A DNA stretch of 37,902 nt from Verrucomicrobiota bacterium (GTDB taxonomy: Bacteria > Auribacterota > JABMQX01 > JAFGEW01), in assembly GCA_016931415.1 (NCBI GenBank), contig JAFGEW010000046.1, forward strand, positions 1 through 37,902. Reading direction: 5' to 3'. The notes beneath the pieces are model-generated. The model saw nothing but the letters and a program-made list of their open reading frames with translations, was not told the origin of the DNA and ran no database searches. The first letter of the stretch is position 1; the number at the start of each line of letters is the position of its first letter. Below, piece by piece: positions 3,021 through 37,620 of the stretch. A program made the translations under genes and the position numbers.

Positions 3021-3587
3021 CTACGCTGACGGCAGGTCGCTAGGCATATCGAGCCCAAAGGACCTGCCCGAGCGTCTGCGGTAGACGTCGTGCAGGCCGT
3101 GCGACCAGTCGTGGATATACTCGCCCTCGCTGTAGACAGAGCGGCCGAAGTTGCCCACCGCCGCCCGCCGCCTGCAGTGGACCGTCTCGGCCCGGAACGA
3201 GGTCGTCGCGCCGAGCATGCAGGTCAGCCCAGTACATCTCACATGCTCGACGAGAGACCCGCACTTGTCGCCGATGTTGTCGCCCTCCGTCGCACAGGCG
3301 GGCAGAACGCCGTTCGAGACGTGCTCGCCGGCGTCGAGCGCCTGCATCACGTGCTCGACGTGCATACAGTGCTGGGCGACGATGACAAGCACGTCGAGAT
3401 CGGAGCGGCAGATCTCGTCGAGGCCCGTGTACGTCTCCGCGATGCCGGACTCCTGGGCGCAGTCTGCAGGGCGGTCGGCACCTGCATCGCACAGGGCGAT
3501 CTTGTCGACCCCCGGGTGATCGCGGAAGAGCCGGACGAACTCCTTGCCGAAGTGGCCCAGGCCAACCATGCCGATCCTGATACCCAT
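3021..3587 (-). pseudogene. Truncated Gfo/Idh/MocA family oxidoreductase
   Basis: The reading frame starts MGIRIGMVGLGHFGKEFVRL, a Rossmann NAD(P)-binding loop (GxGxxG). It continues through the usual N-terminal domain (LDVLVIVAQHCMHVEHVMQALDAGEHV) and into the start of the substrate domain (YSEGEYIHDWSHGLHDVYRRR). It stops after 188 residues, about half the normal 330-400. A conserved family position reads EHV followed by SNGVLPA where KP would be expected, and several odd Cys and Arg residues suggest decay. No continuation is visible in other frames before bfr. I therefore call it a degraded gene; a short functional remnant cannot be excluded. Confidence 0.7.
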
Positions 3588-3745: not shown

Positions 3746-3775
3746 TTGACCTCCCGGGGTGGGATTGCGTAATAT
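3746..3775 (+). promoter_or_regulatory. Sigma-70-type promoter of candidate RNA
   Basis: TTGACC (3746-3751) and TAATAT (3770-3775) are separated by 18 bases, among the best consensus matches in the window. No protein gene starts within 300 bases downstream. The predicted transcript start near 3782 falls exactly at the base of the structured RNA below. Confidence 0.6.
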
Positions 3776-3781
3776 CTCGCC

Positions 3782-3925
3782 TTGAAGGCAGAGGTTGTAC
3801 CTCCCAAAAGGTAGAATCCCCCTTATCTCCTGGTGACAATCACAAACGTCACCGCGACTTCTGCCTTCCTTTTTGTCTTCCTTGCGAAGGCGCACGGTCG
3901 CTCCGTGCGCCTTCTGCATTTTCCC
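3782..3925 (+). ncRNA. Candidate structured small RNA or leader RNA
   Basis: A closing stem of 12 pairs joins 3784-3795 (GAAGGCAGAGGT) to 3857-3868 (ACTTCTGCCTTC), with one G-U pair. Inside it are two hairpins: TACCT/AGGTA (3798-3802 with 3809-3813, loop CCCAAA) and GGTGAC/GTCACC (3832-3837 with 3848-3853). Between them lies an unpaired C-rich stretch, GAATCCCCCTTATCTCCT (3814-3831). The closing stem is followed by CTTTTTG. A second 12-bp hairpin with a short T-run follows at 3886-3924. A consensus promoter ends 7 bases before the structure. It is not recognisable as SRP, 6S, tmRNA or a riboswitch class I know. Either a free sRNA or the leader of the lipoprotein gene at 4092 is possible. Confidence 0.45.
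3886..3924 (+). terminator. Strong hairpin with T-run (intrinsic terminator candidate)
   Basis: GAAGGCGCACGG (3886-3897) pairs perfectly with CCGTGCGCCTTC (3903-3914) around the loop TCGCT and is followed by TGCATTTTC. The 12-bp GC-rich stem is strong, but the T-run is short and offset by four bases. It would end transcription from the promoter at 3746 or attenuate reading into the lipoprotein gene. Confidence 0.5.
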
Positions 3926-3956
3926 GGGCACGGGCGATCCCGAACTGATCCCGCCC

Positions 3957-3985
3957 TTGCTCTTGCTGCGCCATGGTAGTATAGG
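3957..3985 (+). promoter_or_regulatory. Possible promoter of the lipoprotein gene
   Basis: TTGCTC (3957-3962) and TATAGG (3980-3985) lie 17 bases apart and about 105 bases before the lipoprotein start. The match to sigma-70 consensus is moderate. Its presence would let the lipoprotein be transcribed independently of the RNA element upstream. Confidence 0.4.
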
Positions 3986-4091
3986 GTGAGACAGACGTTC
4001 GGAGAGATCCACGGCACGCGGCTGGCCATGAGCCGGCCCCGACCCAGGCATCGACTTGCCCTCGCCGGGCAAGAACGAAGGAGATCACCCA

Positions 4092-4664
4092 ATGAGGGTA
4101 CCCCCGATGAGGACACGCTCCATGAGGCCCGGGCCTACAGGGCATGACCGCACACGCCGCTTACCGCGCGTCCTCGTCGTGCTGCTCGCAACGGGCCTCA
4201 TCGGTTCGGTCGCCACCGGCTGCTTCCTGCTGAGTCGCCCGCCCGATGAACCCGCGCCCAAGCCGCTCAAACTCGAGCCGATCAAGATCGACTGGAGCGA
4301 TCCCGCGTCGGTGGTCGAGGGCTTCTTCGACGCCAAGAAGCGCGGCGACTGGAAGAAGGCGTTCAGTTGCTGCGACTACGTCGAGACCCTCGGCGACAAG
4401 GAAGCGGCCAGGATCCTCGCAGCCTGGAAGAAAGAGGCCTCCGAGTGGGTCACGATGTACCGCTACTCCATGTGGTTCATCGCCGCCGCCCCCGACATCG
4501 ACGAGCAGACCGGCATGGCCGCCGTCAGCGTGGTCCGCATCGACTCGACCGGCCCCGGCGCCATGGACACCAAGCGCACCGGCTTCGTCGAGCTCTGCAA
4601 GCTCTACGGCGACAAGTGGAAGATCACCACCTTCATCGCCCCCGGCGAGAACAGCGAGCAGTAG
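4092..4664 (+). CDS. Secreted lipoprotein with NTF2-like domain
   Basis: The 190-residue product has a basic N-terminus, a hydrophobic stretch (about residues 27-42) and a lipobox ending in C44 (SVATGC). It should be lipid-anchored on the envelope. After a Pro-rich linker, residues about 60-185 (DPASVVEGFFDAKKRGDWKKA... ending GDKWKITTFI) show the helix-then-sheet pattern of NTF2-like or DUF4878-type domains, which usually bind small ligands or partner proteins. ATG at 4092 has AAGGAG at 4078-4083, 8 bases upstream. In-frame ATGs at residues 6 and 11 are alternatives that would give a more typical signal peptide length. No partner can be named from the context. Confidence 0.75.
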   Translation: MRVPPMRTRSMRPGPTGHDRTRRLPRVLVVLLATGLIGSVATGCFLLSRPPDEPAPKPLKLEPIKIDWSDPASVVEGFFDAKKRGDWKKAFSCCDYVETLGDKEAARILAAWKKEASEWVTMYRYSMWFIAAAPDIDEQTGMAAVSVVRIDSTGPGAMDTKRTGFVELCKLYGDKWKITTFIAPGENSEQ

Positions 4665-17892: not shown

Positions 17893-19164
17893 TCACAAAG
17901 CCTCCAGCTCGATACTGCGTCTAAGCCGCGCCTCGTCTTGCACCGGCCCGATGTAGGCGAGCGCTGTGCGGCCCGGACGGAACACAAGGCGCGCAACGCG
18001 CTGCACGTCGTCGGCCGTAATCGCCCGCAGCCGTCGGATCGTCTCGGCGGGGTCGGGGACGCACCCGCTCAGCAGCAGGTTTTCGCCAATCCATACCACA
18101 CGGCTCATGCTCTTCTCCAGCCCCATGGTAAGCTGGCCAACGGCGTACTGCTTCGCGCGCTCGAGCTCGGCGCGGCCGATGCGGTGCCTGCGCAGCCGGT
18201 CGAACTCGTGAACGATGGCGCGCAACCCCACGGTGAGTCGTGCGGTGTCCAGCCCGCCACCAACATACAAGCAGCCCGTGTCCATGTAACGGTCGATGCC
18301 GCTGTAGATCGAATAGGCCAGCCCCCGCTTCTCGCGCACGTTCTCGAAGAGCCGCGAGCTCATATTCTCACCGAGGATCGTGCTGATGATCCGGAGCGCG
18401 AATCGCGCCGGATGCCCACGCCGGAACGTCCGCACGCCGAGTACAACGTGGCCTTCTTCCGTCTCGCGCGCGAAGACCTTCACGACGGGCCGACGCTGAC
18501 GCTCGACGACGCGCCGGAATCGTGCCGTCGGCGGCCCCGGCATCCGCCGGGCCCCTCGCCCGACGAGCTTCACCGCCGCGTCGTGGCGCACGTTGCCCGC
18601 GAGCGCGACGACGCACCCGGCGCGCGTATACATCCGTTTCTGATACCCGACGAGGTCCGCCCGCGTCATACGCTCGATCGTGCCCACCGTGCCGAGCACG
18701 CGCCGCCCGAGCGGGTGCGTGCCCCAGAGCGCCTCGCTGAACAAGTCCTCGACTAAGCTCGACGGCCGGTCTTCAACCATGCGGATCTCTTCAAGCACGA
18801 TGTCCTTCTGCACGTCGAGCTGATCGGCAGGGAACGTCGGTGAGACGACCATGTCCATCAGCGTATCGACCGCACACTCGAGATGCTCGGGGAGCACGTG
18901 GGCGTAGTAGAACGTGCTCTCCTCGCCTGTGGAGGCGTCGAGCGACCCCCCCACACCCTCGATCTCGCGCGTGATCTGCTCGCCCGTGCGGCGACGCGTG
19001 CCCTTGAACACGTAGTGCTCGATGAAGTGCGAGATCCCGTTGAGACGCGCCGACTCGTCGCGCGAGCCGCATCGAAGCCACACACCGACCGAGACCGACT
19101 GGCGATCCGGCATTTCAGCGGTCACGACACGCAGCCCGCCGTCGAGCGTCGTCACGTACGTCAT
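17893..19164 (-). CDS. M16-family zinc peptidase
   Basis: This 423-residue protein belongs to the pitrilysin/processing-peptidase family. The inverted zinc motif HxxEH is HFIEH at residues 46-50, and the third ligand Glu lies in VLEEIRMVEDRP. A second inactive half follows, with NMSSRLFENVREKRGLAYSIYS typical of the family. No signal peptide is visible, so it should be cytoplasmic, as are many short bacterial members that degrade peptides or transit sequences. The residue after HFIEH is Tyr where Met or Leu is usual. The start overlaps ruvX by four bases (ATGA). Confidence 0.93.
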   Translation of the reverse strand: MTYVTTLDGGLRVVTAEMPDRQSVSVGVWLRCGSRDESARLNGISHFIEHYVFKGTRRRTGEQITREIEGVGGSLDASTGEESTFYYAHVLPEHLECAVDTLMDMVVSPTFPADQLDVQKDIVLEEIRMVEDRPSSLVEDLFSEALWGTHPLGRRVLGTVGTIERMTRADLVGYQKRMYTRAGCVVALAGNVRHDAAVKLVGRGARRMPGPPTARFRRVVERQRRPVVKVFARETEEGHVVLGVRTFRRGHPARFALRIISTILGENMSSRLFENVREKRGLAYSIYSGIDRYMDTGCLYVGGGLDTARLTVGLRAIVHEFDRLRRHRIGRAELERAKQYAVGQLTMGLEKSMSRVVWIGENLLLSGCVPDPAETIRRLRAITADDVQRVARLVFRPGRTALAYIGPVQDEARLRRSIELEAL

Positions 19165-36092: not shown

Positions 36093-36500
36093 GCGGAGAA
36101 GCGGGTCTATAAGCCGAATCCTGTCCGACAAAACGCTGCAGGCAACGTCTTACCGGGATGGTCATTCATCTGGGACGACCGTTGCCGGCCGCCTCATGCG
36201 GCCTACCTGGGGCAGGGCGAGCAACCCTATTGTCCCTGTTTGGCCTTGCTCCGGATGGGGTTTGGCCTGCCACAACGGTTTCCCGTCGCGCGGTGCGCTC
36301 TTACCGCACCTTTTCACCCTTACCTAACCAGAATCGGTCTCCCGATTCTGGCGGCGGTGTGTTTTCTGTGCCACTTTCCGTCGCCTTGCGGCGCCCGGGC
36401 GTTACCCGGCATCCTGCTCTGTGGAGTTCGGACTTTCCTCTGACCGACTGGGTCGCCAAAGCGGCACACTCGGCAGTGACCATCCGGCCCGCTCCTCCGC
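36093..36500 (-). ncRNA. rnpB: RNase P RNA, bacterial class A
   Basis: The minus strand carries the universal RNase P blocks: AGAGGAAAGTCCGAACTCC with ACAGAGCAGG (CRI), GGTAAGGGTGAAAAGGTGCG with GTAAGAGCGCACCG (CRII/III), CATCCGGAGCAAGGCCAAA (CRIV), and AGATGAATGACCATCC (CRV). The two ends pair as a 15-base P1 helix (GCGGAGGAGCGGGCC with GACCCGCTTCTCCGC, allowing G-U). This sets the ends near 36500 and 36093 and gives about 408 bases. It is the catalytic RNA that removes tRNA 5' leaders. It lies between the zinc-ribbon gene and hppA on the same strand. Confidence 0.97.
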
Positions 36501-37336: not shown

Positions 37337-37573
37337 CCGCTGTCCAGTGCGACTCGTACCAGTTTCAAGGCCGCTTACGTTACGAGCACGCCCGGCCGGA
37401 AGTCAACGCCTTTTTGGCCTCATGTATCCGCCGAGGGCAGAACGTCCCGGCGAGTGCGGTGACCGCGCCCTATGTCCCCCCAACGCGTCATGCCCAATGC
37501 GCCTATGCCGTGCATTCACCCCGTCGAGACGACACCCTTACATGCCAGCCGGGGCCTAGCACCTCGTTGGTAG
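37337..37573. other. Intergenic region upstream of the zinc-ribbon gene
   Basis: No gene is supported here. The stretch should contain the promoter for the zinc-ribbon gene, but no clear -35/-10 pair was found. Confidence 0.4.
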
Positions 37574-37606
37574 AAAAAACGAGGGCGACCATTTCAGTCG
37601 CCCTCG
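37574..37606 (-). terminator. Intrinsic terminator of the gene at the window end
   Basis: On the minus strand, CGAGGGCGAC (37606-37597) pairs perfectly with GTCGCCCTCG (37589-37580) around a 7-base loop and is followed at once by TTTTTT. This is the clearest Rho-independent terminator in the window. It lies about 50 bases after the stop at 37654. Confidence 0.9.
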
Positions 37607-37620
37607 CTCACGTCATCACC

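Follow-up and report, generated by a model that had tools for sequence, protein, structure and literature searches.

We report a probable small RNA (sRNA) gene at positions 3746-3922 (plus strand) of contig JAFGEW010000046.1 (C46), whose entire 37,902 base pairs (bp; 65% G+C) constitute the window analysed here. This gene, referred to below as copy 1, likely encodes a trans-acting RNA of approximately 90 to 140 nucleotides (nt) that belongs to a multicopy family and blocks translation of the PEP-CTERM regulon. In the mechanism we propose, a long closing stem would hold open a C-rich strand (AGAATCCCCCTTATCTCCT), and this strand would form 11-12 bp with the Shine-Dalgarno region of mRNAs encoding the secreted PEP-CTERM proteins. 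Pairing at the ribosome-binding site would keep ribosomes off the mRNA and thereby block initiation. The whole PEP-CTERM family, whose genes are scattered over the genome, would probably be switched on or off together by such an RNA.

The element begins with a sigma-70-like promoter (TTGACC, an 18-bp spacer and TAATAT; 3746-3775, plus strand) that is predicted to start transcription near position 3782. An earlier sequence-only reading of this region had called the promoter near-consensus and placed it 7 bases before a stem. The promoter is present, but its score of 9/12 with an 18-bp spacer makes the wording slightly generous, and the distance is 8 bases. Nine sites of this quality, including this one, occur on the two strands of the window, and 0.1 such sites are expected per shuffled 541-bp region. 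Folding and a z-score scan predict that the RNA core (3782-3876) adopts a spoon shape composed of a closing stem, a C-rich open strand (3799-3831) and an apical hairpin, GGTGAC/GTCACC (3832-3853). The 12-pair stem previously described at 3784-3795 and 3857-3868 is confirmed, and three further pairs bring it to 15 (5' arm 3784-3798, 3' arm 3854-3868). Two hairpins had been placed inside it; the apical one (3832-3837 with 3848-3853) is certain, whereas the other (3799-3802 with 3809-3812) is predicted to form only about half the time.

Both stop points proposed in the earlier reading are also present. The core ends with CTTTTTG (3869-3875), directly after the closing stem, and a transcript that passes this first possible stop would extend to approximately 140 nt at a second one. 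There, the hairpin at 3886-3914 is lengthened by three pairs (TGC/GCA, with one bulge) to 3883-3918, which creates an intrinsic terminator of 15 pairs with one bulge followed by TTTT at 3919-3922 (3883-3922 in total). The folding z-score for 3780-3930 is -6.9, and the 90-nt window starting at 3781 (z = -6.4) ranks fourth among 1262 windows for fold stability given composition, with RNase P RNA among the three windows ranked above it. A short non-coding element with its own promoter and intrinsic terminator, from which a transcript is predicted, has the gene organization of trans-acting C-rich anti-Shine-Dalgarno sRNAs. Formation of a pseudoknot by CAAAAGG with the CCUUUUUG tail was rejected by reasoning on geometry, as there is no linker to span the 15-pair stem.

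The putative seed of the RNA is the unpaired C-rich strand TAGAATCCCCCTTATCTC (3812-3829). We called 1399 gene starts in 2.0 Mb, or about half of the source assembly (4.06 Mb, 98.9% complete). Perfect complements to the seed of at least 10 nt occur at five of these starts and complements of at least 11 nt at four, compared with means of 1.1-1.8 and 0.26-0.47 for shuffled seeds. The observed count at 11 nt or more was reached in 3 of 1000 shuffles, whether mono- or dinucleotide composition was preserved. Three of the five genes carry a PEP-CTERM signal, and the non-PEP-CTERM genes with long matches encode an aminotransferase, a secreted DUF3352 protein and an 84-amino-acid protein. In the genome, 33 PEP-CTERM (exosortase-sorted) genes score above the cut-off. 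An exosortase gene is also present, and therefore the PEP-CTERM system is probably functional.

PEP-CTERM gene starts were fixed from signal peptides before the upstream sequences were viewed, and 25 could be scored. Seven of these genes carry perfect 11-12-nt complements over the Shine-Dalgarno region: GAGATAAGGGGG on contigs C81, C121 and C4, AAGGGGGATTCT at C93:5287 and on C50, AAGGGGGATTC at C93:6531 and GGGGGATTCTA on C76. Shorter complements are found on C112 (9 nt) and C92 (8 nt). Relative to all called genes, PEP-CTERM genes are strongly enriched (Fisher p of about 1e-10 or lower at 9-10 nt). Shuffled seeds match on average 0.01-0.04 PEP-CTERM starts, or 0.22 when AAGGGGG is kept fixed, and none of 15,000 shuffles (5,000 of which keep AAGGGGG) reached the observed count of seven. 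The association also holds in 14 PEP-CTERM genes from the rest of the genome, beyond the 2 Mb that first revealed the link; matches of at least 11 nt precede 4 of these 14, versus 1 of the 1381 non-PEP-CTERM genes (p = 3.2e-8).

The pattern of these matches is that of an accessible seed complementary to distant ribosome-binding sites beyond chance, as is characteristic of anti-Shine-Dalgarno sRNAs. The target pairing sites map to 3812-3829, the same positions that are predicted to be unpaired, and on the mRNA side they cover the Shine-Dalgarno region and stop no more than about 6 nt from the start codon. The portion of the seed used around a common CCCCC varies from target to target, and the sequences that flank the nine best targets upstream are mutually unrelated. 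The proteins encoded by these targets share only the C-terminal sorting domain, except that C93:5287 and C93:6531 are 33% identical along their entire length and C93:5287 and C92 are similar in part. Genome-wide, the pattern AAGGGGGN{4,11}ATG occurs at 40 sites versus 8 in a reversed control, and about a dozen of these precede PEP-CTERM genes. A possible further target is a peptidase C39-family gene (C109:1770-2691), whose start carries AGGAGATAGGGGGACAAATG and could form about 13 pairs with the seed, with one bulge.

A second copy of the seed resides elsewhere in the same genome. When all windows of 33 nt in the 2 Mb were examined on both strands, only copy 1 and the intergenic locus C116:18812-18925, apart from PEP-CTERM starts and their antisense strands, were found to complement seven to eight PEP-CTERM starts. 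This copy 2 has CCAAAAG and the 19-nt AGAATCCCCCTTATCTCCT in common with copy 1, in which the identical 19 nt occupy 3813-3831. Its stem (GTTGCCG/CGGCAAC) is unlike that of copy 1, and it has its own strong 13-pair terminator with a run of seven Ts. The folding z-score of copy 2 is -7.1, and weak pairing is predicted for part of its seed (18850-18857). Judged from these sequences, a seed that is kept while the stems change is the pattern expected of an sRNA family with selected targets. The family thus appears to have at least two copies and probably a third. The latter, a weaker copy (within C116:19206-19396), carries ATCCCCCTTATCTCCT about 400 bp past copy 2 and is directly followed by a riboswitch aptamer for cyclic di-GMP (c-di-GMP-I class, RF03167; C116:19271-19348, 70.2 bits). 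By inspection, a terminator-like hairpin lies beyond the riboswitch, and no obvious gene is present directly behind it. It is tempting, but only tentatively so, to view these loci as a multicopy family of sRNAs that serves the exosortase/PEP-CTERM regulon specifically and has one member embedded in a c-di-GMP riboswitch transcript. If this speculation is correct, the amount of an RNA controlling matrix protein translation would be set by c-di-GMP, which is the second messenger in biofilm formation.

The sequence-only reading had offered two alternatives for copy 1, namely a trans-acting sRNA with a C-rich seed for Shine-Dalgarno sequences, or a cis-acting leader that masks the Shine-Dalgarno sequence of the adjacent lipoprotein-like gene upon read-through. 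The former is strongly supported by the findings above, although not with the lipoprotein gene as its target. As claimed, ATCTCCT (3825-3831) and AGGAGAT (4079-4085, plus strand) are exact complements. The caution that this 7-nt match is weak by itself was also justified, in that 3% of shuffled junctions match the lipoprotein start equally well. AGGAGAT is common (71 occurrences before ATG in the genome), the duplex energy of the lipoprotein start ranks 536th among the 1399 gene starts, and no pairing in cis is predicted; therefore this gene is not a distinguished target. The cis-acting explanation, which might also operate by alternative structures formed between the stem and the terminator, draws on there being no second promoter-like site as good as this one in the intergenic region, the location of the lipoprotein gene downstream on the same strand, the exact 7-nt complement and a weak alternative helix that is possible between GAAGGC/GCCTTC repeats. 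We nevertheless consider it very improbable. The seven-pair masking helix has a pairing probability of 0.0 in the fold of the 339-nt leader, and the terminator separates its two segments. Forced alternative helices (-48.4 or -50.3 versus -63.1 kcal/mol by default) cost 13-15 kcal/mol, and no known aptamer that could drive a riboswitch or attenuator is found at the locus. Furthermore, the relative at the class level keeps the lipoprotein gene (41% identity) but has no such RNA in the stretch upstream of it. The cis-acting explanation also accounts neither for the matches to PEP-CTERM genes nor for copy 2, which lies at an unrelated locus.

Two other explanations accept the PEP-CTERM matches but interpret them differently. 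The C-rich strand and the PEP-CTERM starts might share a motif for another reason, such as a protein-binding site on DNA or RNA or a dispersed repeat of which the sRNA-like loci carry an inverted copy. Several loci do have 11-12-nt words in common, and of the three intergenic sites that carry the seed, two stand in tandem on a single contig. We regard this explanation as improbable, because the matches are positioned over the Shine-Dalgarno region, about 6 nt or less from the start codon, and because the targets use different seed parts (GAGATAAGGGGG or AAGGGGGATTCT) within unrelated flanks, which is what total pairing length would require but a repeat would not. In addition, copies 1 and 2 each present the seed on the open strand of a fold that has a terminator behind it. 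A marginally better but still unlikely proposal is that pairing is real but activates or stabilizes the PEP-CTERM mRNAs, or that these mRNAs act as sponges for the sRNA. PmaR, an sRNA that also consists of a stem and a C-rich loop, mainly activates its targets (PMC6234868), but its sites lie mostly away from the ribosome-binding site, whereas all long matches described here cover it.

Several observations weigh against the proposal that copy 1 encodes a repressor of PEP-CTERM translation. The gain from cofolding whole RNAs is small (0 to -5 kcal/mol), because the target starts and the sRNA also fold on themselves. The scans for targets and copies covered only about half of the genome. Averaged over all gene starts, the seed performs no better than shuffled seeds, and thus the signal is confined to the longest matches. 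The PEP-CTERM starts were chosen by hand, and 16 of the 25 have no match of at least 8 nt. Finally, a search for conservation, as suggested in the earlier reading, found no full-length homologue among up to 384 genomes; the lineage is thinly sampled, and its sole relative at the class level is one incomplete assembly (81% complete).

BLAST and a covariance model built from the single sequence recovered only the locus itself and no convincing homologue in these genomes, nor was the seed found in other species among them. A constant seed on changed stems would also explain why modelling copy 1 by its structure does not recover relatives. A match with E = 0.002 was antisense within a cysK-like coding gene and was taken as chance. 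The region has no match in collections of phage, plasmid and viral sequences; 12 viral contigs contain 16 consecutive nt of the seed, but the flanks are not shared and these matches were also attributed to chance. In the class-level relative, none of the readable AAGGGGG starts resembled a PEP-CTERM gene. Comparison with Rfam, likewise suggested earlier, produced no family at the cut-off, and the matches to the copy 1 locus at a low threshold were chance-like. Identity with 6S RNA or signal recognition particle RNA was rejected, as the genome encodes these on C39 and C31, respectively.

The proposed RNA would work in a manner similar to known C-rich anti-Shine-Dalgarno sRNAs, and it looks like PmaR, although these analogies do not establish membership in any of their families. 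LhrC of Listeria monocytogenes is a multicopy sRNA whose CU- or C-rich motifs (UCCC), located in loops and single strands, bind Shine-Dalgarno regions, and its pairing with a surface protein mRNA is independent of Hfq (PMC4132741). Multiple copies and a C-rich motif for Shine-Dalgarno regions are thus features in common with copy 1. However, the two differ in sequence and layout, with three redundant sites per LhrC molecule versus one seed of about 18 nt here, and the studied LhrC target is not a PEP-CTERM gene and belongs to an unrelated organism. Related copies of the Rhizobiales RNAs SmelA075 and SmelA099 also carry conserved anti-Shine-Dalgarno loops on stems of diverging sequence (PMC3927594), but these loops repeat the generic CCUCCUCCC three or four times, whereas copy 1 has one longer seed specific for a gene family. 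RsaE/RoxS (RF01820) employs a C-rich seed on Shine-Dalgarno sequences, but the Rfam match here is weak (19.4 bits versus a cut-off of 79) and begins downstream of the seed. With PmaR of Agrobacterium, copy 1 shares the spoon shape, built from a long stem and an open C-rich loop suited to pairing with many mRNAs, and a narrow phylogenetic range. PmaR differs by mostly activating at sites off the ribosome-binding site (PMC6234868), and it is likened here by description and not by sequence.

Pairing would probably have to proceed without Hfq, as no match to PF17209 was found in the 98.9%-complete assembly, although matches were obtained in five control genomes; the RNA is thus not classified as Hfq-dependent. 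The G-C-rich seed duplexes of 11-12 bp have predicted energies of about -20 to -24 kcal/mol, which would be compatible with Hfq-independent action, as for LhrC.

Known control of PEP-CTERM genes by PrsK/PrsR and sigma-54 is transcriptional and proteobacterial, and uses DNA sites that average 71 nt upstream of the start (PMC1569441, PMC9850573). This system is likewise dedicated to PEP-CTERM genes, but the element described here overlaps the ribosome-binding site and would pair with RNA. The paper that defined the PEP-CTERM system noted that further regulators within and outside Proteobacteria were still to be found (PMC1569441). Our literature search for PEP-CTERM genes and sRNAs returned no paper on sRNA control of these genes, which is not proof of absence. 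A dedicated sRNA would represent a post-transcriptional answer, and the seed and target words make the idea directly testable. The analysis also suggests a route to the functions of homologue-less sRNAs in uncultured bacteria, which is to ask whether the complement of the open strand recurs at the ribosome-binding sites of one gene family.

Copy 1 lies in a 504-bp gap between a divergent GFO_IDH_MocA oxidoreductase gene (3021-3587, minus strand) and the lipoprotein-like gene (4092-4664, plus strand), the latter without a Pfam family. The oxidoreductase frame is short (188 amino acids), matches only the N-terminal Rossmann domain and is possibly truncated. The gap is otherwise without a strong feature that favours a protein-coding reading. 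A GTG-initiated frame across the sRNA region was set aside by inspection; it lacks a Shine-Dalgarno sequence and runs through the terminator.

Other structured elements are present in the same window. RNase P RNA (class A) is encoded at 36094-36495 on the minus strand (289.5 bits). A hairpin formed by CGAGGGCGAC/GTCGCCCTCG (37570-37610), with an A-run on the plus strand, resembles a terminator on the minus strand. A perfect AT-rich palindrome, TACTACATGTATATATACATGTAGTA, occupies 1066-1091, some 30 bp ahead of a DUF6788 gene, and no scanned window has a stronger folding z-score than the 90-nt one that covers it (-9.3; minus strand, from 1021).
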